From contig NZ_CP093342.1 of assembly GCF_022637555.1 (NCBI RefSeq), positions 1,922,001 through 1,986,000 of the forward strand: 64,000 nt of DNA. Reading direction: 5' to 3'. The notes under the pieces are model-generated. The model was not told the origin of the DNA and did no database searches. It saw nothing but the letters and a program-made list of their open reading frames with translations. This DNA is from Microbacterium sp. H1-D42. Lineage in GTDB: Bacteria > Actinomycetota > Actinomycetes > Actinomycetales > Microbacteriaceae. Of this stretch, positions 41,099 to 60,402 are shown piece by piece (the first letter of the stretch is position 1; the number at the start of each line of letters is the position of its first letter). Both the position numbers and the translations under genes were made by a program.

Positions 41099-41236
41099 TC
41101 AGCGTCGCCGCTGGCACCTCGGGCAGAAGTGACTTGACCGGTTCATGAACGACGCGCGCTGGATCGGCCCGCCGCAGCGCGGGCAGGGCTGGCCACCGCG
41201 GCCATAGGCGTTCAGCGAGTGGGCGAAGTAGCCCGA
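41099..41236 (-). pseudogene. mutM: Orphan 3' end of mutM (zinc-finger cassette 1)
   Basis: Read on the minus strand, this fragment encodes 45 residues ending in a stop: [21 protein letters not shown], then [15 protein letters not shown]. That is the FPG zinc finger of MutM, with all four Cys. The codon before it is TAG in the same frame and no start exists, so it cannot be expressed alone. Its GC-rich codons resemble the surrounding chromosome, suggesting it is the original 3' end of the local mutM, displaced by insertions. Confidence 0.9.
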
Positions 41237-41242
41237 CTACAG

Positions 41243-41259
41243 CAGTAATGTACGTTCAC
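41243..41259 (+). repeat. Boundary repeat R1
   Basis: CAGTAATGTACGTTCAC lies 6 bp from mutM cassette 1. Close relatives occur in the same orientation at 55373-55389 (CAGTAATGGACATTCAT) and 59427-59443 (CTGTAATGTACATTCAC). It marks the left end of the island. Confidence 0.65.
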
Positions 41260-41278
41260 CCTCCTTAATTGGTACACG

Positions 41279-41599
41279 TCAGCGGCGGGTACCTGGATTG
41301 AGAAGCACAGCGAGGCGCGCCCTCTGCTCTTCGGTGAACGGAGGAGCCGCCGCCCTGATCGCAGCGACATGACGGTCCTGCGCTTCGGTAGAGAATGCAG
41401 CGTCCAGGTCTTCCACCTTGATCAGGTGTTTCCTTACGCGGCGGCCGTCGCGCCCGGCCACGACGATCAACTCGGACGGCAGCGTTCCCTTCTTGATGAG
41501 GTTGTAGATCGTGTTGCGGCTGCAGGCGTGCCTTTCCGCGGCCGCTCGAATATCGAGGCCGTTCTCACTCACACCTGGACGCTCGTCATCGTGGTTCAT
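41279..41599 (-). CDS. Excisionase-like helix-turn-helix protein, copy 1
   Basis: The 106-residue protein has a MerR/excisionase-type HTH (LDIRAAAERHACSRNTIYNL then IKKGTLPSE), a wing region GRDGRRVRKHLIKVEDLDA, and a conserved C-terminal helix (HVAAIRAAAPPFTEEQRARL). It is paralogous to the next gene. An HTH of this kind directly beside the R1 boundary could be a recombination directionality factor or a repressor. The start is taken as the ATG at 41599; an upstream start would add 23 residues. Confidence 0.72.
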   Translation of the reverse strand: MNHDDERPGVSENGLDIRAAAERHACSRNTIYNLIKKGTLPSELIVVAGRDGRRVRKHLIKVEDLDAAFSTEAQDRHVAAIRAAAPPFTEEQRARLAVLLNPGTRR

Positions 41600-41716
41600 G
41601 GGCACTTCCCGCTCGTTCGAGCAGTCGAAAGCTGTCCAAGCGAACCCGCGGCGGTGAAGCCTGTTCAACCAACATGAACGTAGGTAGGAATCGAGAGGTT
41701 CTGATCGCTGCCGACA

Positions 41717-42013
41717 TCACTGCCGTCGGACTTCCAGCGCTCGTCGGATCCGTGTGATCTGCGACTCCGTCAATGGCGTGGCCGCGGCTCGAATCGCGGC
41801 GACGTGATCGTCGTGGGACCGCAGTCGGTCGATCGCGTCGAGGTCCTGGACGCGGATCATGTGCTTGCGCACGCTGCGGCCGTCACGCCCGGGAACGCGA
41901 ACCTTCTCCGAAGCGAGCTGCCCCGTCCGGATCAGGTGATAGACGGCATGGATGGGACGCCCAAGTCGCACTGCGGCGGCGGGGATGTCTAATCGTTCAT
42001 CGGGTCGTTCCAT
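41717..42013 (-). CDS. Excisionase-like helix-turn-helix protein, copy 2
   Basis: The 98-residue protein parallels copy 1: LDIPAAAVRLGRPIHAVYHL, IRTGQLASEKV, GRDGRSVRKHMIRVQDLDA and HVAAIRAAATPLTESQITRI. The shared C-terminal AAIRAAA-x-P-x-T-E-x-Q motif shows tandem duplication. A perfect inverted repeat (42025-42046) lies 12 bp upstream of its ATG, so it is probably controlled there, perhaps by itself, its paralogue or the divergent XRE protein. Confidence 0.72.
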   Translation of the reverse strand: MERPDERLDIPAAAVRLGRPIHAVYHLIRTGQLASEKVRVPGRDGRSVRKHMIRVQDLDAIDRLRSHDDHVAAIRAAATPLTESQITRIRRALEVRRQ

Positions 42014-42024
42014 GGACTCCACCC

Positions 42025-42046
42025 TTCTCGACACCGTTGTCGAGAA
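42025..42046. promoter_or_regulatory. Operator-like inverted repeat 1
   Basis: TTCTCGACA CCGT TGTCGAGAA is a perfect 9-bp inverted repeat immediately upstream of the copy 2 HTH gene. It does not match the actinobacterial LexA box core (CGAAC-N4-GTTCG). Confidence 0.55.
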
Positions 42047-42068
42047 CCCGTCGTCACCACGAATCAAT

Positions 42069-42098
42069 GTGACTCATAGTCCGTGGATTATGAGTCAC
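42069..42098. promoter_or_regulatory. Operator-like inverted repeat 2, XRE gene promoter
   Basis: GTGACTCATA and TATGAGTCAC form a perfect 10-bp inverted repeat with a 10-bp spacer in the divergent promoter region. A -10-like TAACTT follows at 42101-42106, 12 nt before the XRE start. A repressor bound here would block that promoter, a common autoregulation layout for XRE proteins. Confidence 0.6.
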
Positions 42099-42118
42099 TT
42101 TAACTTCATCGTTGAAGG

Positions 42119-42343
42119 ATGACTACCCCTGCGCATCGGATCGCCTTTGGCGATCCGTTGCGCAGGATGCGCCAGGAGCACGGATGGGCTTCGCAGGAGG
42201 CCTTCGCGCATCACGCGGGACTCGACAGGACCTACATCAGCTCCATCGAGCGCGGCCGCCGGAACCCAACCCTGGACGTGATCGTCAAGTTGGCCCACGC
42301 ATTGGAGGTCCGACCCGCGGATCTGCTTGCGACGGTTGAGTAG
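42119..42343 (+). CDS. XRE-family HTH regulator
   Basis: This 74-residue single HTH domain has LRRMRQEHGWASQEAFAHHA, GLDRTYISSIERGRRNP and TLDVIVKLAHALEVRPADLL. There is no extra domain. It has GAAGG just before the ATG. It is divergent from the excisionase-like genes and 6 nt from the next gene, so it probably controls that gene and itself through the 42069-42098 repeat. Confidence 0.9.
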   Translation: MTTPAHRIAFGDPLRRMRQEHGWASQEAFAHHAGLDRTYISSIERGRRNPTLDVIVKLAHALEVRPADLLATVE

Positions 42344-42349
42344 CGAGCA

Positions 42350-42796
42350 GTGCACAGCATTCCCGAGCTCGAAGACCTCGTGCGCCGCGTACGCGCAGCG
42401 ATACTTAGCATCGACGCGGAACCAAGTCGAAATCGCAAGACAATCTTCCCCGCAATGTGGTGCGAATACGCATCCATCGTCATCGCGGAGATCCTGGAGC
42501 GGGATCATTCGACCTCATGGACGTTCATCGATGCAGGCCTGCCTGAAGCGCCGAATGGGCATGCGTGGCTCGAACTACGAGACGACGATGGCACTCGTCT
42601 CCTCACGATCGACGCCACTCTAGATCAGTTCCCCTGGAGCGGCGACGGTCCACATGTGGGCACGGAGCAGACGCCGGCCGCACAAGTCTTCACGACGAGA
42701 CGTTACGAGGGCCCATGGGAAGGCTGGGGCGTGCTGGCGTTCGACCCTACGTTTCGCAAGTATGCAGAGGACTTTGCAGCTCAGTCCGGCCTCTAA
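42350..42796 (+). CDS. Transglutaminase-like cysteine hydrolase candidate
   Basis: The 148-residue protein shows a possible Cys-His-Asp triad: Cys38 (PAMWCEYASIVIAEIL), His71 (NGHAWLELRDDDG) and Asp88 (LLTIDATLDQFPW). That order and spacing are those of small transglutaminase/papain-like folds. The family is not one I can name. Coupling to an XRE regulator suggests a toxin, protease or stress module, unproven. A terminator lies 51 bp downstream. Confidence 0.7.
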   Translation: MHSIPELEDLVRRVRAAILSIDAEPSRNRKTIFPAMWCEYASIVIAEILERDHSTSWTFIDAGLPEAPNGHAWLELRDDDGTRLLTIDATLDQFPWSGDGPHVGTEQTPAAQVFTTRRYEGPWEGWGVLAFDPTFRKYAEDFAAQSGL

Positions 42797-42847
42797 TCGC
42801 ATGCGTCGTCCCCAGGGCGATGGACCGCGCGGGCGCAGCGCAGCACG

Positions 42848-42876
42848 ATGCCTGTTTTTACAGCCTGAACAGGCAT
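42848..42876 (+). terminator. Intrinsic terminator after the XRE / transglutaminase-like pair
   Basis: A perfect 9-bp stem (ATGCCTGTT with AACAGGCAT) with an 11-nt loop is followed by a T-rich TTGTCTTTC. Confidence 0.75.
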
Positions 42877-42949
42877 TGTCTTTCACCTTCGCGTAGACTT
42901 GATCCAAGGCCTTTGACTGGCGCACTACAACTGAACAGGCGGGGTTCTC

Positions 42950-43846
42950 TTGACCTCAGTGACCCAGCGCATCGCGCAGTACAACAGAGAAGTCGGCCAG
43001 CCGCGCGGCGGGCTGGTATGTCCCCAACTACTGACCGTGACGCAGCTCGACGACGGGTGCGGTGAGCTGGACTCCACGGTGGAGAACATCCGCAACGTCG
43101 GGCCGGTGATCCACTACCTCAGCCGCCTGACTGGCGCGCTCGTCGCCTCGCAGGCAGAAGCGAGAGAGGCTGCGGAGTCAATCTTCCGGACATCGCTCGC
43201 CGGTGCACAGAGGCTCAGCGACGAGGGCCTTTATCCCGAAGCGCATGATGATGCACTCGAGTCGTTGAGCGACTTCAGTCTGTCGACGTATGCCGACGGC
43301 GTGGCGTCGTTCGAGCTGGACGAACGAGCTGTAAGCGCTGCGTGCCGGCTCGCGTCCTACGACATCGCCCCGCACGCAGGCGTCGCCTGGTACGACCCAG
43401 CCGATACTGATCGCTCCCCCGACGCGAAGACGCTTTCGCACATCATCATGATGACGGAGAGGACGCACGACTTCCTCCAAGAGCACGGCCCAGCCACGGC
43501 GATCGAGTTCTCGTTCGCCAGCGAATATGAAGAGGATGAGGATGAAGAGACAGACGGATACCTGATCGCCCTCGATGCCGGGGACGGGGACTTCATCACC
43601 GAAGAAGCGGTGTGGGCCTACAAGGCCCGAAGCTCGCCTCCGAGCAAGGACCACCTGTTGAGGCTGCTGGTGCACTACCTGATGGGCAAGGATTCCGGAC
43701 TCCCCCAGTTCCGGACGCAGACTCACCTAGGGATCTTCAACCCGCGGATGAACGCAATGTACCGGCTGGCTGTCGACGACATTCCCGCACGTGCGATCGA
43801 AAGTGTCCGGCGCGACATCATCGGATCAGGGAGGATCGAACCATGA
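42950..43846 (+). CDS. Protein of unknown function, partner of the repeat nuclease-like protein
   Basis: This 298-residue, mostly helical, acidic protein has no motif I recognise. The region about residues 180-210 is very acidic (EYEEDEDEETDG), and the C-terminal third ends in RRDIIGSGRIEP. The TTG start at 42950 has GGCGGGG about 7 nt upstream; a GTG at 42959 is an alternative. A TAGACT -10 candidate lies at 42894-42899. The stop overlaps the next start by 4 bp, so the two proteins are made together and probably act together. Confidence 0.7.
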   Translation: MTSVTQRIAQYNREVGQPRGGLVCPQLLTVTQLDDGCGELDSTVENIRNVGPVIHYLSRLTGALVASQAEAREAAESIFRTSLAGAQRLSDEGLYPEAHDDALESLSDFSLSTYADGVASFELDERAVSAACRLASYDIAPHAGVAWYDPADTDRSPDAKTLSHIIMMTERTHDFLQEHGPATAIEFSFASEYEEDEDEETDGYLIALDAGDGDFITEEAVWAYKARSSPPSKDHLLRLLVHYLMGKDSGLPQFRTQTHLGIFNPRMNAMYRLAVDDIPARAIESVRRDIIGSGRIEP

Positions 43847-46800
43847 GCCTTACGAGTGAACTGCGTCACGCCGGATCTCCGATCCGCGCGTACCTCGACG
43901 GGGTCTCGCCCGTTCTGGCTGCGACGCGCGGCAGCAGCAGCACCGCGCGGCAGGCCGCTGCCACCCTTGGCCTTGTCGAGCTCGCCGAGAAGCCGCTGCT
44001 CGTGCCCGCCGGCGATGCGGTGGACAGACCACTGTCGGGAACTGCATTCGACATCAGGGCACGGATCGAGCTCGGTGGTTTCGACCCAGCCGCTTCGACA
44101 TCCGCCGCCGGCGTCGACGCGCTGCCACGCGTTGCCGCACTGGTCGAGAACGGCGAGCATCGGGCGGCAGTTCTCAGCGACGCGTTCCGCGTCGGCGACG
44201 AACTGCTCAGGCAGCCCGCGGATGCTTCCGACCTGACGCGGGCCTCGGTTCTCTTCGCCTACTGCGAGCAGGTCTACAGGGGCGGTGCCGACGCTCTGGC
44301 CGGCGTGCTCGGAGCGGCCTGCGACGAGGTGGAGGACGGGCTGGGGCTGGCTCAGGCGATTCCCGACGCTGCGCTCGAGGACGTCGAAGCTCTGCTGGAA
44401 GCGGCCCGCCCGCAGATCGATGTCTGGAGCGAGCGCATCGCGGCCGGAACGCGCTTCGAGCCGAACCCGCGCTTCAGCGGTGCGAGGCTCCTGGGCGGGG
44501 CCGACGGCGACTGGATGATCGGCGAGACACTCATCGACTGCAAGGTGTACGGGGGGCTGAGCATCGCCAAGCTGCGCGACTTCCTCCGCCAGCTCCTCGG
44601 CTACGTCATGCTGGACCTCGAGGACGCGCTGAGGATCCGAGAAGTCGGCGTCTGGCTTCCGCGGCAGCAGGAGCTGAAGACCTGGTCGCTCGGGCAACTG
44701 CTCGGCGACGATCCCGAGACGCTCCTGCCGAAGCTGCGCGAGGGCTTCGTCGGCGCGACCGCACGCAACCAGATCGCCGTGCACGTGCCAGTGTCGGAGC
44801 GCCGCAAGCTGCAGCTCCTCGCCGACAACCGGCACACCCCGCACGCTATGCTCATGGCGCTCGCGGCGGGCGACGACATCGATCTACGGTTCCGCGTCGG
44901 ACGCAACGCCTCGTCCCCGACGGATGTGGTGAAGCAGCTCGCAACAGACCATTACGCCCGCGTGCGCGAAGGCGTCGCCATGAACACGGCAGCGCCAGCC
45001 GAGGTGTTCCAGAGCCTCGCCGGGGACAGCAGCGTGATGGTGCGCCGCGCGGTGGCCGCGAACCCGTCGTCAGGCACCGCATCGGCGCAGCAACGGACGC
45101 AGATCGCAGGGCGCACCGATGGTGCGGCTCCGATCGAATCCGGCAATGGCGAGATCGTTCAGCTTGATGAGCGCCCAGCGTACGAGGTCGATACGCGCCG
45201 CGTGGAGATCAACCAGGACCGCGATCCCGAGGCAACTCCGGGGGTCGCGCTCGGATCGATTCTGTTGGCGATGCTGCACGAGTCCGGCGGTCGAGCTCTC
45301 GACAGCTGCTTGCCGGAGGCCAGCCGTATCTGGTCCTGGAAGTCCGACAGATCCCTCCGCCTCCCGACGGAGGCATCACAGGGCCTCCCTATCGAGGTCA
45401 TCGCGGACCTGATGTCGGACCAGCGGACGGCTTACGTGCGCCGGATCGCGGCGAGGATGCTTCCTATCGCGGACACCGCCGTCCGCCGGGCGCTCTTCGC
45501 GGACGATGACCCCGGAATCCGTTGGGACGCGCTCGAGCGATCGATAGGCAATCCCGACCCGCAGCTCGGCGAAGTCCTCACGGAGCTCGCGGGCTCTCGT
45601 GAAGCACGGATCGAGTTCGCCACGGGAGGGCTTGAGCCGCACGAGCGCTGGCAGACGCCGACCGAGTACAGCGACCAGGTGGCGCGGCTCATCGCGCGTC
45701 ACCCGGCGACGCCGAGCGAGGCATTGACGGACCTGGTCGCCGAGAAGTCGCCCGAAGTGCTGATCGCGCTGGCAGGAAATCCCTCGCTTAGCGCGGGGTC
45801 ACTGGAGTCGCTGACGACGAAGATGGCGAGCATGCGGACCGAGGCCGCGCGCGAGATGTTCGCCGAATCCGATCGGACACCGGTCGCGGTGCTTGAAGGG
45901 CTATCGACGGATAGGAGGAACTATCTCCGCGCCGCAGTGGCGGCCAACCGCTCCGCTCCGCTGCATGTCCTGTCACGGCTGGCGCAGGACAGTTCGGCCG
46001 ATGTCCGACTGGCGGTCATGGCGAACCCCCAGGTCCCCAGCGAGCTTGCCTTTTCCATCGCGGAGGTGCTCCTGGCCTCTTCGGAGAACCTCGATCTGCA
46101 CTCGGTGGTCATCGAGGTGGAACGAAGACCGGATCTGGCTGTGTCTGATGGCCTGATGGAGGCTGCGCTCGACCGCTTGTCGAAGAGCAGAGTCCGCGAT
46201 CCCGATCTCCGCCACTACGCGGCGTTGGACCAGAGAACCGGCATCAGCACTCTGGAACGCCTCGCCAAGAGCAAAGACGCAGAAGTAAAGATAGCGGTCT
46301 CCGAGAACCCTCGCACCCCGCGGCATGTCCTGGAAGCACTGGCTCTCGACGCAGACGCGGAAGTCCGCCGAGCGGTCGCGTGCAACGACCGCCTGCCGCA
46401 GAATCTGCTGAACGTTCTGCTGCTCGACGACGACCTTGACGTCCGCATCGCGGCCTACCGGGAGCCCGACGCGGAAGAACAGACCGACGACGAGCCTACG
46501 CTGTCGACGGAGGTGAACGTCGCCGCCCGGCCCACAGTTCCGACGGTCACGGAGCTGCAAGAGATGGCCGCGAACTCGAGGGCCGAGGTGCGGATCCGGG
46601 TCGCTTACAGCGTGCACGCGACGCCGGACATCCTGGCGTTTCTCGGAGGCGAGCGGCGCAGCGCGAAAGTCCGGCGCGCTGTTGCCGCACACCCGAAGAC
46701 GCCACCGGAGATTCTCAGATCGTTGGCAGCCCGAGACGACGTGGACACGCTCATGTCCATAGCATTCAATCCAGGCGCACCGATCGACGTGATGGCCGAG

Positions 46801-46998
46801 CTCGCCGGCCGAAGTGCCGAACTAGCGGTGCTGGTGGCGCTGAACCCGGACGCTCCGCTCGAGGTGCTCAAAGCACTGGCGAGCGACTCGGACCTGTTCG
46901 TCAGGTTCGTCGCGGAGGCTCAGATCCAGAAGCGGGCGCGGTCTGTTCAGACAACCTCTGAAAGCGTTCTGATCGCATCAGAAGATCTGTTGGCATGA
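43843..46998 (+). CDS. Nuclease-like domain fused to long LRV/HEAT-type repeats
   Basis: The 1051-residue protein has two parts. Around residues 215-265, GGADGDWMIGETLIDCKVYG, RQLLGYVMLDLEDAL and VGVWLPRQQ fit a PD-(D/E)xK nuclease core (Asp221 or Asp223, Asp232-x-Lys234, then the Q-x-x-x-Y helix). From about residue 330 to the end, leucine-rich-variant/HEAT units repeat, with the pattern N-P-x-T-P-x-x-V-L-x-x-L-A and V-R-x-A-V-A (NPRTPRHVLEALALDADAEV is a clear unit). Such repeats form a curved scaffold that binds proteins or nucleic acids. SD GGGAGG precedes the ATG at 43843. A defence role is inferred from architecture and context only. Confidence 0.75.
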   Translation: MSLTSELRHAGSPIRAYLDGVSPVLAATRGSSSTARQAAATLGLVELAEKPLLVPAGDAVDRPLSGTAFDIRARIELGGFDPAASTSAAGVDALPRVAALVENGEHRAAVLSDAFRVGDELLRQPADASDLTRASVLFAYCEQVYRGGADALAGVLGAACDEVEDGLGLAQAIPDAALEDVEALLEAARPQIDVWSERIAAGTRFEPNPRFSGARLLGGADGDWMIGETLIDCKVYGGLSIAKLRDFLRQLLGYVMLDLEDALRIREVGVWLPRQQELKTWSLGQLLGDDPETLLPKLREGFVGATARNQIAVHVPVSERRKLQLLADNRHTPHAMLMALAAGDDIDLRFRVGRNASSPTDVVKQLATDHYARVREGVAMNTAAPAEVFQSLAGDSSVMVRRAVAANPSSGTASAQQRTQIAGRTDGAAPIESGNGEIVQLDERPAYEVDTRRVEINQDRDPEATPGVALGSILLAMLHESGGRALDSCLPEASRIWSWKSDRSLRLPTEASQGLPIEVIADLMSDQRTAYVRRIAARMLPIADTAVRRALFADDDPGIRWDALERSIGNPDPQLGEVLTELAGSREARIEFATGGLEPHERWQTPTEYSDQVARLIARHPATPSEALTDLVAEKSPEVLIALAGNPSLSAGSLESLTTKMASMRTEAAREMFAESDRTPVAVLEGLSTDRRNYLRAAVAANRSAPLHVLSRLAQDSSADVRLAVMANPQVPSELAFSIAEVLLASSENLDLHSVVIEVERRPDLAVSDGLMEAALDRLSKSRVRDPDLRHYAALDQRTGISTLERLAKSKDAEVKIAVSENPRTPRHVLEALALDADAEVRRAVACNDRLPQNLLNVLLLDDDLDVRIAAYREPDAEEQTDDEPTLSTEVNVAARPTVPTVTELQEMAANSRAEVRIRVAYSVHATPDILAFLGGERRSAKVRRAVAAHPKTPPEILRSLAARDDVDTLMSIAFNPGAPIDVMAELAGRSAELAVLVALNPDAPLEVLKALASDSDLFVRFVAEAQIQKRARSVQTTSESVLIASEDLLA

Positions 46999-47158
46999 GC
47001 GCGGCTTGCCAGGCAAACTATGTATTGGCTATGCCTGCTGACAATTAGATCGCAGTCCGGCATCGGAAGTACAGCCGACTCGCTCGGTCGCAGAGCACCC
47101 CTCGATAGGCTCGTTGCCAGGCGACCGGACGCCTCACGGTGTTGGAGGGTGAACAGCA

Positions 47159-48247
47159 ATGGCAGTTGAAATGGGCCTGTGGCGCGCGGACGGCGGCCGA
47201 CTCAGCCGCATCGTCCCGACCTCGATCGGACTCGAGTCGCAGCTCGAGACGTACATCGAGTCCGACCCGTCGATGCTCGGCGAGACGCTCCTGATCATCG
47301 GCCGCCAGGTCCCTACCGCTTTCGGCGGGTTCATCGACCTGCTCGCGCTCGACGAGACCGCCGCAGTGCACGTCATCGAACTCAAGCGCGACAAGACTCC
47401 GCGCGACGTCACCGCGCAGGCGCTGGACTACGGATCCTGGGTCGCGGGGCTCGGCCGCACGCAGATCCAAGCCATTTTCGAGGCGTACAAGCCCGGTGTC
47501 GCGCTCGAGGAGGCCTTCGCGGAGTGCTTCAACGAGACCCTCCCCGAGGAGGTCAACAGCACGCAGACGTTCACCATCGTCGCCGCGAGCGTCGACGCGG
47601 CCACCGAGCGCATCGTGCGGTTCCTCAACGAGGGCTTCGCCGTGCCGATCAACGTCGTCTTCTTCCGCCACTTCGAGGACAACGGCGCGAAGTACCTCGC
47701 CCGCACCTGGCTGGTCGAGAACGAAGGCCAGCAGGCTCCCGGCGCTGCGCCCGCTCGGCAGACGAAGACCCGCGAGGCGTGGAACGGCAGCGACTGGTAC
47801 GTCGCGTTCGGCGAGGACAGCGGCACCCGCCAGTGGGCCGACGGGCAGAAGTACGGCTTCGTCTCGGGCGGCGGCGGGGCATGGTTCTCCCGGACCCTGA
47901 AGAACCTGCCGATCGGCGCGCGCGTCTTCGTGCACATCCCCAAAGCTGGTTACGTCGGCGTCGGGACCGTGATCGGCGAGGCCCGCCGCTTCGACGAAGC
48001 GCTGGTCGACGTCGATGGCGTCGAGACCCCGCTGCAGAGCCTCCCGCTCCTCGGCAGCTACCGCCACGAGGGCGAGGATGAAGACGACAGTGCCGAATGG
48101 GTCGTGCCCGTCGAATGGACCAAGACCGTGCCGCGCGAGCAGGCGGTCTGGAAGAACGGTATGTTCGCGAACCAGAACACCGCGGCGAAGCTGCGCCAGA
48201 AGTTCACCATCGAGCAGGTGACCGACGAGTTCGGCCTCGACGACTGA
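47159..48247 (+). CDS. NucS/DUF91-like endonuclease with EVE/PUA-like C-terminal domain
   Basis: The 362-residue protein has an N-terminal PD-(D/E)xK domain: LLIIGRQVPTAFGGFIDLLA (Asp60) and AVHVIELKRDKTPRDVTAQA (Glu74-Leu-Lys76, then Gln), with YGSWVAGL. After a Thr/Pro-rich linker (about residue 205) the C-terminal part (DWYVAFGED, QKYGFVSGGGGAWFSR, VFVHIPKAGYVGVGTV) resembles an EVE/PUA-like base-binding fold. This combination suggests a modification-dependent restriction nuclease. It has GGAGGG 9 nt before the ATG and a TAGGCT -10 candidate near 47106. Confidence 0.78.
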   Translation: MAVEMGLWRADGGRLSRIVPTSIGLESQLETYIESDPSMLGETLLIIGRQVPTAFGGFIDLLALDETAAVHVIELKRDKTPRDVTAQALDYGSWVAGLGRTQIQAIFEAYKPGVALEEAFAECFNETLPEEVNSTQTFTIVAASVDAATERIVRFLNEGFAVPINVVFFRHFEDNGAKYLARTWLVENEGQQAPGAAPARQTKTREAWNGSDWYVAFGEDSGTRQWADGQKYGFVSGGGGAWFSRTLKNLPIGARVFVHIPKAGYVGVGTVIGEARRFDEALVDVDGVETPLQSLPLLGSYRHEGEDEDDSAEWVVPVEWTKTVPREQAVWKNGMFANQNTAAKLRQKFTIEQVTDEFGLDD

Positions 48248-51034: not shown

Positions 51035-51039
51035 GGCGC

Positions 51040-53224: not shown

Positions 53225-53281
53225 TGAGCACGTGGGTGGGTGGCTCCCACTTGGGCGTGTAGACGGTGTCCGGGATCCCGA

Positions 53282-53287
53282 TAGCAT
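53282..53287 (+). promoter_or_regulatory. Leaderless -10 box (TAGCAT)
   Basis: TAGCAT is 6 nt before the GTG start at 53294. The upstream CCGATAGCAT is shared with the DUF4062 promoters. Confidence 0.55.
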
Positions 53288-53293
53288 AAGCCC

Positions 53294-54463
53294 GTGGGAG
53301 ATGAAGACCGTCCAGACGTCAAGCGCGTCCGCCTCACCGGCGCGCGCTTCGACGGTGGTCGTCTGCCCATCGACTCACTCTCCGAACTCCAGGACTACCA
53401 GAAGGTCGTGCGCATCGCCGCAGCGGCGCAGTGGCGGAGCGAGCACCCCGGTGAGGAACTGCCGGCCGGCTTCGCTGACGCCGTTAGCCTGACTATCGAG
53501 GAGATCAACGAAGGCAGCGCCGACGTCTTCCTCGCCTTCGAGCAGCAGCAGGAGTACGTGCAGTACCAGGCCGAGGCGCAGGACGCGAGCGACATGGTCA
53601 ATAGCGTGATCGCCGCCGCGTACCGCGACGAGGAGGTCCCAGACCTTCCCCTGCTGTCGCCGGAGGAGGACTCGCTCTTCTTCGAGACGCTGTCGCATCT
53701 CGGTGGCACGCTCACGCCCGAGCAATCGATGGAGTTCTACGTCGACGGGCCCGATGCCGCTCCGGTCATGGTGACGGTCGAGACGCGCAAGACCGCGATC
53801 GTCAGGCTGGCGAAGATCGACTCTTTCCTTCAATCGCCCGAGGAGACGCCGTCTTCGAAGCTCCAGAAGGACGAGCAGAGCCTCATCGGCCGAATTACCG
53901 TGCTGGACGCGGACAAGATGTCATACGAGCTGACGCTTCCCGACGGACACAAGATCCGAGGTCACTACCGCAACGCGCCGGCGCTTCTCGAAGACTTCCG
54001 CAAGGTGCTGAACTCGGAGGAGCAGGGGCCGCTGACGCGCATCACCGGCGAGCTCCAGCGGAAGGCGGACGGATCCATCTGGCGATTCTGGGAGACGCGC
54101 TCGCTCGAGCAGGTCGAGTTCGACGACACCACATGGGGCGCTCGGCTCGCGGAACTCGCGGGCCTGGCCCCGCAGTGGGACGGGGCCGCGGCCGCCCAAG
54201 TCTCGTCGGTCTCGCTGGACGCCGCGCAGCTCCTGCTGCGCGAGATTGACGCGACGGGGAATGCCTCACCTGGCATCTTCCCGACCGAGGACGGCGGAGT
54301 GCTCCTTGAATGGAGCAGCCCCGCCGCGGTCCGGAGCATCGAGATCCTCGAGGACGGGACGTTCGAGACCTTCACGATCACGTCAGATCAACAGACCGGC
54401 GAGCACGACAGCACCGGCGACCTGACTGTGGTCGTCGCGTTCATCAGGGCGGACGAGGCATGA
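53294..54463 (+). CDS. 389-residue protein of unknown function
   Basis: This acidic protein has an N-terminal stretch with DGGRLPIDSLSELQDYQKVV and a central FLAFEQQQEYVQYQAEAQDA helix. A small beta-rich domain (IGRITVLDADKMSYELTLPD ... ITGELQRKADGSIWRFWETR) resembles an SH3/OB-type barrel, and a C-terminal region contains GVLLEWSSPAAVRSIEILED. No family is recognised. The start codon is a leaderless GTG, and the stop overlaps the next ATG by 4 bp, so it works with the 54460 protein. Confidence 0.7.
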   Translation: MGDEDRPDVKRVRLTGARFDGGRLPIDSLSELQDYQKVVRIAAAAQWRSEHPGEELPAGFADAVSLTIEEINEGSADVFLAFEQQQEYVQYQAEAQDASDMVNSVIAAAYRDEEVPDLPLLSPEEDSLFFETLSHLGGTLTPEQSMEFYVDGPDAAPVMVTVETRKTAIVRLAKIDSFLQSPEETPSSKLQKDEQSLIGRITVLDADKMSYELTLPDGHKIRGHYRNAPALLEDFRKVLNSEEQGPLTRITGELQRKADGSIWRFWETRSLEQVEFDDTTWGARLAELAGLAPQWDGAAAAQVSSVSLDAAQLLLREIDATGNASPGIFPTEDGGVLLEWSSPAAVRSIEILEDGTFETFTITSDQQTGEHDSTGDLTVVVAFIRADEA

Positions 54464-54939
54464 CCGCTCCCGACGTCGGGCTCCTGCAGGGCGAGCGGCT
54501 GATGACGGACGCCGACGAGCTCGCCTACCGACAGCTCACACCCAAGATGCTCGAGCAGAACGGCAAACCGTCGTCCCACGTCTTCGGGCCCAGCAGCGCG
54601 GACGGCGGTAAGCCGTCCTACTCCCGGTCGAGCATCGTGACGCCCCAGGCCGCGCGCGACTGGCACACGGCGTATGCGAACACGCCGTCGGCAGGCGTAT
54701 GGGCGGTGTCTGTGAGCGAGGTCATCGAGACGGGGCGATACCTCGTCGACGACTCGGACACGCCGCTTCCGGCGAGCGGCCGGCGAGCTCCGGGCCACTG
54801 CTTCGTTGATTTCCGCGGTCTACCCAAGCCCCGGATCAGGGAGATCCGGGCCGTCCTTCTTATGCGTGCCCTGGAGCGCGAGGAGATCCCGACCGAGGAG
54901 CCGCTGGGCGACGGCGAGTTGATCGCAGAGACGGCCTGA
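54460..54939 (+). CDS. 159-residue protein coupled to the 53294 gene
   Basis: It starts at the ATGA overlap. Notable stretches are SSHVFGPSSADGGKPSYSRS, TPQAARDWHTAYANTPSAGV, VSVSEVIETGRYLVDDSDTP and GHCFVDFRGL. The His/Cys content (RDWH, GHCF) could support a small enzymatic site, but I do not recognise it. Together with the 53294 gene it may be a two-component module of unknown purpose. Confidence 0.65.
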   Translation: MTAPDVGLLQGERLMTDADELAYRQLTPKMLEQNGKPSSHVFGPSSADGGKPSYSRSSIVTPQAARDWHTAYANTPSAGVWAVSVSEVIETGRYLVDDSDTPLPASGRRAPGHCFVDFRGLPKPRIREIRAVLLMRALEREEIPTEEPLGDGELIAETA

Positions 54940-54967
54940 CGGCCTGGAACCCAGATAGCCTGGCCGA

Positions 54968-55093
54968 ACGGAGCACGACGAGCTCGGCGACGTACAGGGC
55001 GTGCCCACCGGCGACGACTACCGGACGTGCTCGGTCTGTGGTGGCGACTTCGCAGAATGGACCCTCGGCAAGAGCGACATGCCCGGGATGTAA
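54968..55093 (+). pseudogene. Small zinc-knuckle ORF with a lost start codon
   Basis: TAGCCT (54956-54961) is followed after 6 nt by ACG, exactly where neighbouring leaderless genes have ATG or GTG. The frame then reads EHDELGDVQGVPTGDDYRTC, SVCGGDFAEWTLGKSDMPGM and stops. The CxxC motif and 41-codon length look like a real small protein whose start mutated from ATG to ACG. Initiation at a GTG further in (54.99-55.00 kb) is an alternative. Confidence 0.4.
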
Positions 55094-55123
55094 CGGGCCG
55101 CTCGCACCCGCCGAACTGATCTT

Positions 55124-55139
55124 TATGCGTATTGAGCGA
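55124..55139 (+). repeat. Right-end motif of island segment 1
   Basis: TATGCGTATTGAGCGA recurs with one mismatch at 59347-59362 (TATGCGCATTGAGCGA). Each copy lies about 85-150 bp before a mutM stop codon, so both segments seem to end in the same way. Confidence 0.55.
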
Positions 55140-55222
55140 CCATAGCGAGTACTAAGCGATACTTTTGCGAAGTTATGCTTGATCAGGGAAAAACTGCGTC
55201 CGATGATCGCATAGGCTTGTGA

Positions 55223-55366
55223 CTACGAAGAGCGCTTGCGCTGACACTGAGGACAGAAAAACGAGGATCGGTTCATAAATTTCACCCGGCGGATGGGTGA
55301 TCCACATCGTGCACATGCCTGGTCGGTACGACCATAGGCATTTAGGGAATGCGCAAAATAACCTGA
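55223..55366 (-). pseudogene. mutM: Orphan 3' end of mutM (zinc-finger cassette 2)
   Basis: Read on the minus strand it encodes [40 protein letters not shown] and a stop, i.e. the MutM zinc finger with four Cys. A TAG precedes it in frame, so it is not expressed alone. Its codons are clearly AT-richer than those of the surroundings (GGT TAT TTT, AAA TTT), so it came from a donor of different composition. It was probably the mutM end in use before the second integration. Confidence 0.9.
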
Positions 55367-55372
55367 CTACCG

Positions 55373-55389
55373 CAGTAATGGACATTCAT
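55373..55389 (+). repeat. Boundary repeat R2
   Basis: CAGTAATGGACATTCAT is 6 bp from cassette 2, in the same position and orientation as R1 beside cassette 1. The following GCGGCC is also present after R3. Confidence 0.65.
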
Positions 55390-55437
55390 GCGGCCGCGAG
55401 ATCCGGCTGTACCTGACCGAGCGAGCGAAAGCGAGCA

Positions 55438-55598
55438 GGCCGGAAGCGACAGTAGCGCGACCCAAACGGCCCAGACCGCGTTCGCGACTACCCAGGCCCC
55501 ACTTGCAACAATGGTAGGAAGATCGTCAGTGCCGTGGCCACAATGCTCGCGAGGATGCCGAATGGCTCGAAGACAAAGTACTTTGTGCGGGCTGGCAT
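55438..55598 (-). pseudogene. Truncated, frameshifted copy of the membrane coiled-coil gene
   Basis: From the ATG at 55598 it encodes MPARTKYFVFEPFGILASIV and ATALTIFLPLLQ, matching the N-terminus of the 48695-49498 protein. It then hits a stop. In another frame the similarity continues as VVANAVWAVWVALLSL, so there is a frameshift, and it ends about 50 bp from R2. The divergent -10 box has changed from TAGTCT to CAGTCT. DUF4062 copy 2 therefore has no intact local partner. Confidence 0.8.
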
Positions 55599-55640
55599 GA
55601 CCCGAGACTGGCGGCGGGGCTCCACGTCCTATGCCGCCGA

Positions 55641-55646
55641 TAGCAT
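55641..55646 (+). promoter_or_regulatory. Leaderless -10 box of DUF4062 copy 2
   Basis: TAGCAT with a 7-nt spacer (CTGAGGC) before the ATG at 55654, identical to the copy 1 promoter over GCCGATAGCATCTGAGGC. Confidence 0.6.
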
Positions 55647-55653
55647 CTGAGGC

Positions 55654-56691
55654 ATGGACAAGCGGTACCAAGTATTTATCAGCTCGACTTTCGTCGATCT
55701 CGTCAACGAGCGCCGCGAGGTGATGCAGGCTTTGCTGGAGCTGGACTGCATGCCCGCCGGAATGGAGCTGTTCCCGGCGGGCAATGACGACCAGTGGACG
55801 CTGATCAAGGGCGTCATCGAGCAGAGCGACTATTACCTGGTGATCCTCGGTGGCCGCTACGGCTCCATGACCGAGGAAGGCATCAGCTACACCGAGATGG
55901 AGTACGACTACGCAGTCGAGCTCGGCATCCCCGTCATGGGGTTCGTCATTGCTGACCCTGACGCGATCCCCGTCGGAAAGACCGACAAGAGCGAAGCAGC
56001 GGCCCGGAAGCTCGACGAGTTCCGGGCCAAGGTCCAGAAACGGATGACGAAGGACTGGAAGGACGCGGCGGACCTCGGGTCGAAGGTCACGCGCGGACTG
56101 ATCCACTTGATCAAGAACAACCCGCGTCCGGGCTGGGTACGCGGCGACCAAGCGATGACGCCGGAGACCCGCGCCGACATCGCTGAGCTAGAAGCGAAGA
56201 TCGCCAAGCTTGAGAAGAAGGAACTCGAGGCGAGCACGGCGACCTTCGCCCACATCGACGACAGCTTCGCGCACGGCAAAGAAACCGTTGAGCTGACAGC
56301 CATCCATTCAGGCTGGCGCGCGTACCAAGACCTGCTCGAAGAGGGGACGCTGTCGTACAGCTGGGACGAGATCATGGAGGTGCTCGGGCCGTTCATGCTC
56401 GATGAAGCCTCTGAGCCCGTTCTCCGTTCCACTCTCGAAAGCCACATGCTCCGCGATATCTTCCGCGAAGGCAGCGAATGGTCTCAGGACTGGGAACGAG
56501 ACGAGCTCGAGATCTCCGACAAGTCCTGGGGGTCGATCATCGTGCAGCTGCGCGCCTTGCGGCTCATCACGACCGGCACCAAGAAGCGCGCCGTCACCGA
56601 CAAAGCCGTGTACTGGAAGCTCACCAAAGCGGGCGATGACTACCTCGTCACGCTCCGCGCGGTGCCGGCCGGAAGAAAGGTCGAAGAGTAG
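55654..56691 (+). CDS. DUF4062 domain protein, copy 2
   Basis: The 345-residue paralogue of the 49555 protein has the same motifs: YQVFISSTFVDLVNERREVM, MELFPAGNDDQW, DYYLVILGGRYGSMTEEGIS and YTEMEYDYAVELGIPVMGF. The C-terminal half keeps SYSWDEIMEVLGPFMLDEAS, DKSWGSIIVQLRALRLI and VYWKLTKAGDDYLVTLRAV. It is most divergent around residues 215-285, the likely specificity region. It is intact although its divergent partner is broken. Confidence 0.85.
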   Translation: MDKRYQVFISSTFVDLVNERREVMQALLELDCMPAGMELFPAGNDDQWTLIKGVIEQSDYYLVILGGRYGSMTEEGISYTEMEYDYAVELGIPVMGFVIADPDAIPVGKTDKSEAAARKLDEFRAKVQKRMTKDWKDAADLGSKVTRGLIHLIKNNPRPGWVRGDQAMTPETRADIAELEAKIAKLEKKELEASTATFAHIDDSFAHGKETVELTAIHSGWRAYQDLLEEGTLSYSWDEIMEVLGPFMLDEASEPVLRSTLESHMLRDIFREGSEWSQDWERDELEISDKSWGSIIVQLRALRLITTGTKKRAVTDKAVYWKLTKAGDDYLVTLRAVPAGRKVEE

Positions 56692-56722
56692 GCCCAGCCG
56701 ATTCGAAACACCTGGGGCGGAG

Positions 56723-57886
56723 TCAGGCTGTTTCGGAGCTGACGGGTCCCGAACCCAAGTGCCGGGCCGCATCGTCCACGAGCCGATCAATGACGGCCTG
56801 CGTCCCCGCCGGGCCCTCGATCAAGCTCTCCTTGAGCTGCGAGGCCCACTCCACGACTTCGTGGTCGCTGACGCTTTCTAGCCAGGACTCGAGCCCGCTG
56901 CGGGTCAGCTCGGCGGACAAGGGCAGCAGCAGTTCGATCAGACTGCCGCGGGCGCTCATCGCCCCGAGCCTGACTTTGGTGCGCTCCGCTGCTGTAATGA
57001 GCGAGCCCCGCGCGATGGCTTCTCGCTCGTTCGCGTGGGCCACCGTGATCTCGTAGCGCGCCGGGATCCTCTCCGGAGGCGGGTCCTCCCCGGTGACCAG
57101 TCTCGGGACGGCCTGTTCCCGGACCCAGGAAGCGAGCTCGGCCAGCTCGTGCATCAGTATCGGCCACTGGTCGGTCCCCGGACGGTTGGCTCCCACCGTG
57201 GGGAACAGCGCTACGGGGACATGCTGGCCGAGCGGTGTGCGGGCGATGACGTCGCCGACTCTCAGCGGGACCTCCGGCTCGAGCCTGACGTTGTGACGTG
57301 AGAGCGGGATCTCGTCGTCCCTCACGATAGTGACGAGGCGCACGGCGGTGACCGCGGGCGTGCGGTGCTTGGCGTGGTTCGTGTGCAGCGCGAGGCGGGC
57401 CATGGGGTGCAACTCCGGCCTGATGTTCCGGTGGAAGGGCTGGAGTCCCTCGACGCGGCGCAGGAGCTCACTGCCCTTCGCCATGGCCGCAGGCGCGTAG
57501 CGCTGACGATTCCTCACCCACTCCGCGTACTTGTCGTAACTGAGCGCGGCCGGCATCTCGATCGAGCGGGCGGCCTTCTCGTCCAGCGCCGTTCCGCTGA
57601 GGAACTCTGCCTCGGCGAACAAGGTGTGCTCGATGGCCGCACGGAGCGCCACGAGCGCATCTGCCGCCAGCAGCGGGATCTTCCGAGCGATAGGTGCCAG
57701 CCCGACGACGGTCGTCTCGCTGTACGCCCCTCGCACGACTTCCTTGAGCTCGATGACCCCGTTCGGTTGCGTCATATAGTCGAAGAGGAGGTCGCCCACC
57801 TGCGCGATCAGCTCGTCCGCGTGGGCGAGCGTGGAGACGACGCCGAGGTGCCGGTCTGGCAGCCATGGAAGAATATCGCCCGTCAT
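56723..57886 (-). CDS. 387-residue protein of unknown function
   Basis: The protein starts MTGDILPWLPDRHLGVVSTL and continues with AHADELIAQVGDLLFDYM. A helical N-terminal half contains DALVALRAAIEHTLFAEAEF, a pattern seen in actinobacterial phage- or abortive-infection-adjacent hypothetical proteins; the middle has PFHRNIRPELHPMARLALHT and NHAKHRTPAVTAVRL. The E-H-T-L-F-A-E-A and H-T-N-H-A-K-H elements might form a helical catalytic core, but no family is assigned. TAGGGT (57893-57898) is 6 nt before the ATG, another leaderless start. Confidence 0.7.
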   Translation of the reverse strand: MTGDILPWLPDRHLGVVSTLAHADELIAQVGDLLFDYMTQPNGVIELKEVVRGAYSETTVVGLAPIARKIPLLAADALVALRAAIEHTLFAEAEFLSGTALDEKAARSIEMPAALSYDKYAEWVRNRQRYAPAAMAKGSELLRRVEGLQPFHRNIRPELHPMARLALHTNHAKHRTPAVTAVRLVTIVRDDEIPLSRHNVRLEPEVPLRVGDVIARTPLGQHVPVALFPTVGANRPGTDQWPILMHELAELASWVREQAVPRLVTGEDPPPERIPARYEITVAHANEREAIARGSLITAAERTKVRLGAMSARGSLIELLLPLSAELTRSGLESWLESVSDHEVVEWASQLKESLIEGPAGTQAVIDRLVDDAARHLGSGPVSSETA

Positions 57887-57892
57887 GCGACC

Positions 57893-57898
57893 ACCCTA
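57893..57898 (-). promoter_or_regulatory. Leaderless -10 box (TAGGGT)
   Basis: TAGGGT is 6 nt upstream of the ATG at 57886 on the minus strand, matching the spacing at the neighbouring island genes. The remaining gap to 58152 contains nothing I can support. Confidence 0.5.
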
Positions 57899-58151
57899 CG
57901 GGCGACCGGCGACGCTTCCATCCACGTTCAACAATCGGTCGCTCATTGACGTCACGAAATCAACCGGAACATGCAGCTGAGCCCGATGGACAGTGCCTCG
58001 GCGATGACCGACGTGCAGGCCGAACTGTTCCGCGGCATGTGCCCCGACACGGAAAGTCGACCTCGACCTCGGGCTCTGACAGGCGTACCAGCACGGCAGA
58101 GAAACGAAGAACCCTGCAGCCCTTGGACTACTGAGGTTCTGCGCTGTCCTG

Positions 58152-59087
58152 TCAGTCGCTGGTCACTTCCTCGGCCGAGGCCGAGGGCTCGTCCTCGGGA
58201 ACGAGGACCCCGAAAGCTCGCAGCTGCGCCATCATCTCGGGCGAGTTCAACGCAGGAACGGAACTCGAATCGGAGTCGTCCTGGTCCGAGCCACCGACGT
58301 CGAGCCTCAACGTTTCAGGTATCGAGCCGTTGATCTTCTTGAGGGTGTCACCGATCACCTCTAGGTCTTTGCTGATCCGCGTCAGCTTGTCGACCGGGGC
58401 TTCGATCCTGCTCTCAACGTCAAGATCGATGACGAAGTCTTCCTCGTAAGGCGTCTTCCTGAACTGCGACTCATAGCTCGCGTGGATCCGGTACCGCCTG
58501 GGCACGTTCCCGTCATCCTCGAAAAGCTTCGGCGCTCGCCCGAGGAACCAGATGTACTTCGCCCCGGGGCGGATGTAATCGAAGCGCACGGTGCCGTCGA
58601 ATGTTTCGTTCAGCCTCTCGAAGTGCTGATCCCTGTTCGTCTCCCTCGGTTCGTTGAAGAATGCCGGAAGGGAATCGAACGGCTGATCAACGCTGAGTTT
58701 CACATTCTGCGCCGCGCTACCTCCGAAATTGGTCAGTGCAACATAGACGGTGCCCTCGGCGGGCGCGCCTCGGTGCTTGCTGACGAAGCGCTCCGCTTGG
58801 AGGTACACCTGGATACGCGGCCGCGTCGTCTCCAGACTTACTTCCAGTGCGACCTCGTTCGATTCGATGAGCGCACGGTTGGAATCGTCTACCTGCTTGA
58901 TCTGCTTCCAGGCGAACAGTAGAGCGATCAGCGCAACGCCTCCGAAGAGCGCCGAGAACTCCTCGGGCGTCGGGAAGTTCGGGTGCCTCCACCACGTCCC
59001 CCAGAGGTACGCGCTCAAATAGAAAAGCACGACGAGCACGAGGACGACGAGCATGAGAGCCGCCCATTGAGACCTTTTGATTTTCAC
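58152..59087 (-). CDS. Membrane protein of unknown function
   Basis: The 311-residue protein has two N-terminal membrane helices (WAALMLVVLVLVVLFYLSAY and FSALFGGVALIALLFAWKQI). A soluble beta-rich domain follows (ETTRPRIQVYLQAERFVSKH, GTVYVALTNFGGSAAQNVKL), which resembles an immunoglobulin-like fold. The C-terminal tail is Ser/Asp/Glu-rich. TAGGTT at 59094-59099 lies 6 nt before the GTG start. The function is unknown. Confidence 0.78.
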   Translation of the reverse strand: MKIKRSQWAALMLVVLVLVVLFYLSAYLWGTWWRHPNFPTPEEFSALFGGVALIALLFAWKQIKQVDDSNRALIESNEVALEVSLETTRPRIQVYLQAERFVSKHRGAPAEGTVYVALTNFGGSAAQNVKLSVDQPFDSLPAFFNEPRETNRDQHFERLNETFDGTVRFDYIRPGAKYIWFLGRAPKLFEDDGNVPRRYRIHASYESQFRKTPYEEDFVIDLDVESRIEAPVDKLTRISKDLEVIGDTLKKINGSIPETLRLDVGGSDQDDSDSSSVPALNSPEMMAQLRAFGVLVPEDEPSASAEEVTSD

Positions 59088-59346
59088 AGCCCTAACCTAC
59101 TGGCCCCGGTCCGGGCACCCCCGATGACTGACGAGGCTTGAACAGGGGAAATGGCCCGACTACGGGTGTCCTGCAATTCACCCGGTCGAGAACGCTCCAA
59201 CGCGTCTAGCGATCGAGCCGAACCTCAAGTTGCTCCGGCCGCGAGCCGGAACAGCGGCAGGCCCACCGGCCACTCTGGTCACAGGTGTCCCGCCGTCCAT
59301 GCCTCGATGCTCCTACCGGGCACCGACACCGTTCGAAAGCAATATA

Positions 59347-59362
59347 TATGCGCATTGAGCGA
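59347..59362 (+). repeat. Right-end motif of island segment 2
   Basis: TATGCGCATTGAGCGA matches 55124-55139 at 15 of 16 positions. Confidence 0.55.
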
Positions 59363-59426
59363 GTGCGAGCGCTCTACGTTGCGCCGACGCGGGTAAACGT
59401 GAACGGGGAGGAATGAAGCTCTTGGA

Positions 59427-59443
59427 CTGTAATGTACATTCAC
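59427..59443 (+). repeat. Boundary repeat R3
   Basis: CTGTAATGTACATTCAC followed by GCGGCC. It is related to R1 and R2 but, unlike them, is not beside a mutM fragment. It lies 68 bp beyond the functional mutM stop. Confidence 0.6.
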
Positions 59444-59511
59444 GCGGCCTTGGGTCCTCAACTGCCCTGCCCGTGAGGGCCAGCCCGCACACCACAATCA
59501 CCCCAACTGGA

Positions 59512-60402
59512 TCATCTTTTTCGTTGGCAGACCGGGCAAAAATGTGACGAGCGGTTCGTGAAGGCAACGCGCTTGATCAAGCTTCCGCAACGGCTGCAGG
59601 GCTTGCCGCCACGGCCATACACTTCAATCGATCTGGCAAAATAACCGGCCTGGCCGTTGACGTTCACGTACTGCGCATCGAAGCTGGTGCCGCCTTCGGC
59701 CAGAGCCTTCTCGAGCACGAGGCGCACTTCGCTCAGCAGCCGACGCACAGCCTGAGCCGACAGTGCCGCGCCGTGCGACTCGGGATGGATGCGCGCCGCC
59801 CACAGGGCCTCATCCGCGTAGATGTTGCCGATGCCGCTGATCAGCGTCTGGTCGAGCAGGATGCGCTTGATCGCACTCGACCGGCGGCGCACGGCAGCGA
59901 TGAAGGCCCGTTCGTCGAAGGCCGGGTCGAGGGCATCCCGCGCGATGTGCGCGACCTGCGACGGCACCTGGGCCAGATCACTGCCGAACCCGCCGGCGGC
60001 GCCCTCCGTCGCGACTAGCGCGTCGACCGCCAGCGACCCGAACGTGCGCTGATCGGCGAATGCCACCGCAAGGCGGCCGTGCTGCGGATGCTCGATATGC
60101 AGCCGGATTCGCTCATGGCGCTCGCGCACAGCATCCGATTCGCGCAGCAGCATCTGCCCGCTCATGCCGAGATGTGCGATCAGCGCGTCGTCATCGCCTT
60201 CGAGCGGCAGCCACAGGAACTTTCCTCGGCGCACCGCCGCGCGCACGGCGCGGCCCTCCAGGCGCGCGACGAAGTCGGCGGCGCCGAGCGGATGCCTGGT
60301 GAGGGCGCGCTCGTCGAGCACATCGACTGCGCTGATGCGCGCGCTGGTGACGGCGGGTGCGAGACCGGAGCGGACGACCTCGACCTCGGGAAGCTCGGGC
60401 AC
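59512..60402 (-). CDS. mutM: Formamidopyrimidine-DNA glycosylase, chimeric 3' end
   Basis: MutM removes 8-oxoguanine and FaPy lesions. The 296-residue protein starts at a GTG (60402) with PELPEVEVV, so Pro2 and Glu3 form the catalytic N-terminus. LARFLGMSGQMLL-like HLGMSGQMLLRES, HPESHGAALS region residues and the H2TH stretch (ALWAARIHPES) follow. The C-terminal zinc finger has Cys269, Cys272, Cys289 and Cys292. From Gly253 on, codons switch to AT-rich forms (GGT TAT TTT, ATT GAA, AAA AGA), unlike the first 252 codons. This part is related to the orphan cassettes at 41.1 and 55.2 kb, so the gene has probably received a replacement 3' end. It lies 7 nt after rnc. Confidence 0.94.
   Translation of the reverse strand: MPELPEVEVVRSGLAPAVTSARISAVDVLDERALTRHPLGAADFVARLEGRAVRAAVRRGKFLWLPLEGDDDALIAHLGMSGQMLLRESDAVRERHERIRLHIEHPQHGRLAVAFADQRTFGSLAVDALVATEGAAGGFGSDLAQVPSQVAHIARDALDPAFDERAFIAAVRRRSSAIKRILLDQTLISGIGNIYADEALWAARIHPESHGAALSAQAVRRLLSEVRLVLEKALAEGGTSFDAQYVNVNGQAGYFARSIEVYGRGGKPCSRCGSLIKRVAFTNRSSHFCPVCQRKR
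59636..59646 (-). repeat. Candidate crossover core in mutM
   Basis: The minus-strand sequence GGTTATTTTGC (Gly-Tyr-Phe-Ala codons) is identical at 55353-55363 in cassette 2. At 41223-41233 (cassette 1) it reads GGCTACTTCGC, differing only at third codon positions. It marks where cassette homology begins in all three copies. Confidence 0.6.

Follow-up and report, generated by a model that had tools for sequence, protein, structure and literature searches.

The window analysed here is a stretch of 64,000 nucleotides from Microbacterium sp. H1-D42 (contig NZ_CP093342.1, positions 1,922,001 to 1,986,000), and is part of a complete 3.66-Mb chromosome. We are concerned with its gene mutM, which encodes a base-excision-repair enzyme, and with two islands that lie at the 3' end of this gene. 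mutM spans 59512-60402 on the minus strand, and consists of a 252-codon core followed by a zinc-finger end. Two further copies of this end, referred to as orphan fingers, lie in the window away from the gene, one in the middle and one at 41.1 kb. All three are on the minus strand and have lengths of 44 (working), 46 (middle) and 44 (41.1-kb) residues; coordinates of these and all other features are given in Table 1. An earlier sequence-only reading of this DNA had described three such copies on one strand, which is correct except that its orphan intervals began one codon early, inside the flank. A whole-genome search with the working copy gave the orphan fingers at 66% and 68% identity (E 2e-15 and 8e-18), so they are not chance matches.

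The sequence GGTTATTTTGC is identical in the working gene and the middle copy, and is changed at third positions only in the 41.1-kb copy, as the sequence-only reading had noticed. It had also suggested that the farthest copy is native-like and the other two foreign in composition, and that codon usage breaks inside mutM after the core. Both suggestions hold: the fraction of G/C at third codon positions (GC3) is 0.85 for mutM codons 1-252, 0.59 for the working finger, 0.48 for the middle copy and 0.89 for the 41.1-kb copy, and the minimum over 208 sliding 44-codon windows of the core is 0.73. The stop codon of the 41.1-kb copy is 6 bp from that of an ABC permease.

The finger was searched for in 366 genomes of the genus, scoring at most 19 candidates per genome, so that the count of genomes with an extra copy is a lower bound. 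A match was found in 358 of them. For the native state we used 40 genomes with one strong copy, a non-random choice from the 150 best-scoring matches. Each of the 40 carries the 41.1-kb type at the end of mutM: 39 have one 12-residue start, the other has a variant of it, and none starts with GYFARSIEVYGR. The working mutM end in the window is therefore foreign. The permease is convergent with mutM at a distance of 100 bp or less in 20 of the 40, is farther away or otherwise placed in 5, and was not found within about 1.6 kb of mutM in 15. These results bear out the expectation that island-free relatives would have the 41.1-kb-type end fused to mutM, and the proposal that mutM originally ended 6 bp from the permease stop.

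The middle copy is found fused to mutM, with identical protein sequence, in another genome of the genus (G334). Together with the end type seen in the relatives, this indicates two stacked islands and a chimeric enzyme. mutM residues 1-294 align with the solved MutM structure 1l1t (E 5.6e-46), and the four finger cysteines are retained. As judged from its sequence, the mutM product is a chimeric enzyme with a foreign zinc finger, and presumably it works.

An extra strong finger copy is present in at least 16 of the 366 genomes, namely the window genome and 15 others. The latter were found by searching again the 49 genomes with two or more finger matches; second hits in the remainder are weak, lie in a long frame and are probably from a Nei-type paralogue. 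One of the 15 (G354) resembles a repeated mutM end, with mutM core sequence ahead of both copies. The prediction that other genomes would have different cassettes is thus confirmed in 15 further species of the genus, and the suggestion of an insertion hotspot is borne out, with the hotspot extending beyond the genus, as described below. Some of the islands are related to those in the window. G334 matches the left end of the inner island, island B, with 93% DNA identity over 250 bp, and has 4.86 kb in common with it at 93% identity; G311 has two pieces of it, of 1.27 kb (86%) and 1.19 kb (93%), and G163 holds pieces of both window islands at 79-80%. Other insertions are small. Single-gene cassettes, with 473-1091 bp between fingers, occur in G106, G100, G245 and G327 (473-643 bp in the first three), and G327 has two cassettes in series, one with a ParE-type toxin gene. 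In G096 a 43-kb stretch separates mutM from an orphan finger; judged by how their sequences begin, many genes of this interval are presumably metal-type transport and thiol genes.

A half-site at the right ends

A similar 25-bp sequence, missed by the sequence-only reading, lies directly ahead of both orphan fingers, at the right ends of the islands. Right ends in six actinobacterial genera have this half-site in common. It is non-coding, is located ahead of orphan fingers, and has the consensus TSAAYGTnnnnnASTGnnnnAGTCG|GG. A pattern made from the right-end sites matches the window at exactly those two places and has no match in 100 shuffles, which shows rarity only, because the pattern was built from the sites. 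When the pattern was applied to the 366 genus genomes without requiring a finger, it had 12 matches, spread over 11 genomes, and half of them (6) adjoin an orphan finger whereas the other 6 do not; a reversed pattern gave zero among the matches listed. 

We rely on 17 junctions that were found via finger or integrase searches, in which the motif was not used. In 12 of these, TSAAYGT matches at 6 or more of 7 letters exactly at -25. The others are G153 (5/7 there), G152 (motif at -20), and G223, G354 and G004 (motif absent). The only other offset that recurs among the 17 is -20, seen twice.

In mutM itself the same motif is found 7/7 at -20 in all 40 native genes, within Val-Asn-Val codons. The outer motif is thus at -25 in both window right ends and at -20 in mutM. 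This is the 5-bp difference between the attachment sites attP (island) and attB (chromosome) described for serine integrases, whose outer (ZD) motif sits 5 bp farther inward in attB than in attP, according to the available text of Rutherford and colleagues (PMC3783163). It is this match that raised the suspicion of a large serine integrase. On the other side of the crossover, ACRTTSA at +16 matches native genes at 4-6 of 7 letters, and was not counted as a symmetric right half of attB because three of its positions follow from the protein sequence. 

An extra copy of the end motif, TGAATGTACATTACAGTCC, is found 3' of the mutM stop, and has no finger after it. The left end of G163 is similar and has an aligned, altered version of this copy, which may be a remnant of another junction.

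Serine integrases in related islands

A scan of public genomes with the right-end pattern gave 14 loci. In 9 the half-site is followed by a finger; the other 5 have no finger after the half-site and were rejected as chance matches. Two of the 9 were already known (G327, G106), and the remaining seven are from Myceligenerans, Gordonia (three), Streptomyces, Arthrobacter and Leucobacter. Three of these seven (G369, G370 and G372), which come from Gordonia spumicola, Gordonia sp. ABSL49_1 and Leucobacter chromiireducens, contain a serine integrase of 470-486 residues with PF00239 and PF07508 domains, which starts 43-44 bp from the GG. A fourth integrase, 81% identical and in the same place beside the right end, between mutM and an orphan finger, was found in one of 398 family genomes (G454; E 1e-110). 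Three of the four islands were thus reached through the right-end pattern and one through the integrase itself, and the predicted integrase beside the right end is present in all four. A search of the Gordonia set found it in 2 of 59 genomes, both already known, and the public protein set contains 30 relatives at 54% identity or more, the named ones including Gordonia, Nocardia, Streptomyces, Kocuria and Cutibacterium. The islands of G372 and G454 also have a MobA-type relaxase and that of G369 a TraG-type coupling protein, which indicates that the integrase family includes mobilizable elements.

The four integrase islands have ACATTCA at +21 to +27, within the finger codons, with 7/7 letters in 4/4. 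This is the mirror of TSAAYGT at -25; the 40 native genes have 2-4 of 7 letters at the same position. Symmetry of attP about the GG amounts to 12, 17, 15 and 16 of 25 pairs, and when the centre was shifted the same score was reached by 1, 0, 0 and 0 of 50 centres. The 12-base stretch of the four fingers that contains the motif is 94% identical, compared to 66% for the rest, and has G/C at only 2/16 third positions, compared to 98/144 elsewhere. Together with the symmetry of attP, the conservation of this stretch and its shortage of G/C at third positions suggest that in the integrase islands the coding sequence of the finger also acts as one half of an attachment site. If so, this explains why an island must bring a different finger.

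In an unannotated human-gut scaffold filed as phage (MT835574.1, 45000-86253), a mutM finger is followed after 3.3 kb by another finger, which, on inspection by eye, is preceded by TAAACGT at -25 and AGTCG|GG. This stretch lacks an integrase of the clade. Gut Actinobacteria may thus be further hosts in which the mutM site is used.

Mechanism and alternatives

We consider it probable, on comparison of these loci, that the mutM 3' end is the attachment site of an actinobacterial island family whose complete members have a large serine integrase, and that the window islands are stacked, integrase-less members. The integrase would join the island attP to the mutM attB at the GG, two base pairs ahead of the point where the finger codons begin to diverge. 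For its left half, attB would use the mutM codons for Val-Asn-Val-Asn-Gly-Gln-Ala, and the right half of attP would lie within the zinc-finger coding sequence carried by the island. Because of this arrangement, integration would swap the last 44-46 mutM codons in frame, leaving the old end stranded on the far side. In the window, the outer island (A) would have given the working end, while the end brought by island B would have been displaced to 55.2 kb and the native end to 41.1 kb. The swap interpretation of the sequence-only reading is thus supported. Of its two successive insertions, the two stacked islands with frame-restoring foreign fingers stand; the islands may have arrived in two insertions, one after the other, or as one composite.

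Several observations weigh against this mechanism. No recombinase gene was found in either window island by searches with PF00589 and PF00239, and no member of the integrase clade turned up among the 366 genus genomes, where the best match reached 44% identity. The window islands and 14 other integrase-less islands lack symmetry about the GG, with 3-9 of 25 pairs compared to a background of 5.9-6.8 (the window islands have 7 each, with a background of about 6). ACRTTSA at +21 is missing in the integrase-less islands except G152 (6/7), so that they have the left attP half only. In G370, mutM and the orphan end are on separate contigs and the attP pairing is assumed. Finally, for the A118-type integrase the available text of PMC3783163 places the motif at attP positions 16-24, and the motif here is about two positions farther out. 

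For the window islands, then, the features expected of a large serine integrase are found in part: the 5-bp-offset attP/attB motif is present, and an island-encoded protein with PF00239 and PF07508 and a symmetric attP are absent. Because they lack a recombinase and half of its site, the insertion step is inferred from the relatives. The window islands presumably owe their origin to this integrase family, either by deletion within once complete islands or via help in trans. They may be relics that lost the integrase and whose left ends drifted, may be moved by homologous recombination, or may use a helper for which one good half is enough.

The absence of both integrase and symmetric attP from the integrase-less islands is also what gives weight to RecA homologous recombination after DNA uptake. 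It would move all of these islands, both window ones included, by exchange between mutM and the finger repeats, with no site-specific enzyme now taking part, and the conserved right end would be only a relic of an older integrase. The islands are flanked by direct repeats of about 130 bp, the two fingers of G153 differ at one residue of 44, and G163 joins an island-A-like left end to an island-B-like right end, all of which suit such an exchange. However, at the junction the native and foreign ends in the window have only 'GG', scattered bases and short runs in common, which is too little for homologous recombination. In addition, unrelated islands change from native to foreign sequence at one and the same base pair, and the half-site is kept exactly at -25 in most junctions. 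We regard this as possible but rather unlikely.

It is somewhat more doubtful that mutM is an integron-like platform of Actinobacteria, where integrase-less cassettes of one or a few defence or toxin-antitoxin genes are captured with the aid of a visiting serine-integrase element. Each capture would exchange the zinc finger, since the finger that an island brings has to include the attP half-site in its codons. The single-gene cassettes of G106, G100, G245 and G327, stacked at one site, are like integron cassettes. Unlike in integrons, the mutM site has no IntI, the islands of the window genome and 15 relatives contain no tyrosine recombinase, and the half-site is of the serine-integrase type.

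Insertion in trans by a tyrosine recombinase (XerC/XerD or a phage-type integrase) is very improbable. XerC- and XerD-like genes are present in the genome, and many relatives have tyrosine integrases, but these enzymes need 6-8 identical bp between the crossover points, the native and foreign ends have no such identity after the GG, and the right ends are occupied by serine integrases instead. Candidate tyrosine integrases were rejected because, when compared by eye, all PF00589 matches (4 in the window genome, and those in the 15 relatives) are outside the islands. That the fragments arose without mobile elements, each as a separate duplication of the mutM end, as G354 looks to be with its core sequence ahead of both copies, is scarcely credible, given that the copies differ strongly in sequence and composition, the native neighbour sits beyond the islands, and the right ends are common to several genera and adjoined by integrases.

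Other possible drivers were sought. Integrases 32-50% identical to the clade occur in 33 of the 366 genus genomes at E 1e-40, and were rejected as drivers of mutM islands since 30 of their loci (2.9-4.4 kb each) have no mutM finger; one 5-bit match was dismissed. The PF00239 resolvase domain was not found inside an island in the 16 genomes. The island of G152, which has its half-site at -20 rather than -25 and an attP-like finger (6/7), contains a 288-residue fragment (L017:1606-2472) that matches PF07508 weakly (E 0.0017, under the cut-off); we take the frame beside it to be IS110-like. A phage or plasmid driver looked for via the finger was likewise rejected: the matches in phages and plasmids are mostly bacterial and mutM-like, and none was confirmed in IMG/VR. 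The right-end pattern has no match in IMG/VR, and the integrase search gave none in plasmids, 33-34% identity in phages and at most 40% in IMG/VR. Comparison of island B with plasmids gave homology of 115 bp only.

Known systems, cargo and meaning

The nearest parallels to the mutM islands, as far as the available texts describe them, are the staphylococcal cassette chromosome (SCC) and e14. In SCC, serine recombinases (Ccr) act on a central-dinucleotide site in a conserved housekeeping gene, rlmH, and there are composite islands, pseudo-SCC without recombinase genes, and restriction-modification cargo (PMC10581047, in the part available); on the proposed mechanism the mutM islands are alike in all these respects. 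They differ in that their target is mutM and their hosts Actinobacteria, that a whole 44-46-codon zinc finger rather than a short repeat is exchanged, and that a single integrase, not a Ccr pair, is present in each of the four integrase islands. In the window the target is not rlmH, and the islands have no PF00239 (ccr) match. 

The element e14 uses a tyrosine integrase, and phage 21 inserts at icd as e14 does. At icd of E. coli, e14 brings a replacement 3' end and leaves the old end (163 bp) as a displaced copy (PMC6379469, in the part available). The likeness is an element-borne replacement 3' end of a host enzyme gene with a displaced old copy. The e14 ends are nearly identical, whereas the mutM ends differ strongly, share two bp at the crossover and are stacked. 

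Integrative and mobilizable elements with serine integrases resemble the islands of G372 and G454 (integrase and MobA-type relaxase) and G369 (TraG-type protein), and differ in their target. No earlier report of mutM as an integration target was found in the literature searched, which did not extend to subscription journals and preprints; one paper that came up is, by its title and abstract, on mycobacterial repair, and the 15 listed of a further 178 do not contain 'mutM'. The available part of a paper on actinobacterial integrative and conjugative elements has no mention of mutM, fpg or formamidopyrimidine.

A PADLOC scan of ten window proteins gave three strong candidate-defence matches (PDC-S61, PDC-S11, PDC-M32A) and one weak. 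Among 88 proteins from the islands of relatives, type I and IIG restriction systems and AAA proteins are present. On these matches, candidate defence (anti-phage) genes are a frequent cargo of mutM islands. 

The DUF4062 gene and its upstream region are present in both islands (49337-50571 and 55438-56667) with 77-87% DNA identity in ungapped pieces. The island A copy starts about 50 bp from the right end of the island, at a place where a divergent membrane-protein frame breaks off. In the Gordonia and G454 islands there are HTH_17 genes (matches under the Pfam cut-off) close to the integrase, and island B has similar genes at its right end; a role as directionality factor or regulator is possible for them.

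Table 1. Features of the mutM locus and its islands (window positions)
Feature	Position	Strand	Basis or remark
mutM core, 252 codons	59647-60402	-	last 20 bp (59647-59666) = attB-like left half; TGAACGT at 59660-59666
Working zinc-finger end of mutM, probably from outer island A	59512-59646	-	putative crossover dinucleotide GG at 59645-59646
Extra end-motif copy	59424-59442	-	3' of mutM stop
Outer island A, ~4.3 kb	55364-59646		no recombinase gene
Island A: membrane-type protein	58152-59087	-	weak DUF4131 match, under Pfam cut-off
Island A: 387-residue protein	56723-57886	-	no Pfam or PADLOC match
Island A: DUF4062 protein, paralogue of that in island B	55654-56691	+	sequence similarity
attP-like left half, right end of island A	55364-55388	-	TGAATGT at 55382-55388
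Middle zinc-finger copy, mutM end probably brought by island B	55223-55363	-	same protein sequence fused to mutM in G334
Inner island B, ~14.1 kb	41234-55363		no recombinase gene; mosaic common to same-site islands of G334, G311, G163
Island B: candidate defence family PDC-M32A	53294-54463	+	PADLOC, E 5.7e-39
Island B: DUF4062 protein	49555-50595	+	domain match
Island B: candidate PDC-S11	47159-48247	+	PADLOC, E 1.4e-150; weak NucS_C nuclease match
Island B: long leucine-rich-repeat-variant (LRV) protein	43810-46998	+	start coordinate provisional
Island B: candidate PDC-S61	42950-43846	+	PADLOC, E 2.8e-67
Island B: small helix-turn-helix gene	41717-42067	-	resembles HTH_17 neighbour; sequence similarity
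HTH_17 gene at right end of island B	41279-41668	-	relatives at right end in G311, G334, G163
attP-like left half, right end of island B	41234-41258	-	TGAACGT at 41252-41258
Displaced native mutM end	41099-41233	-	sequence comparison
ABC-transporter permease, native convergent neighbour of mutM	39770-41092	+	permease beside mutM in relatives

The proposed mechanism makes mutM a new attachment gene for serine-integrase islands in several actinobacterial genera, and it predicts attP, attB and the crossover. These predicted sites could be developed for integrating DNA into bacteria that have few genetic tools, and the mutM site is a place to seek new defence genes. It would also mean that the DNA-binding zinc finger of a base-excision-repair enzyme is exchanged by mobile DNA in many species. 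Because it is the finger of a repair enzyme that is swapped, an effect on mutation rate is directly testable.

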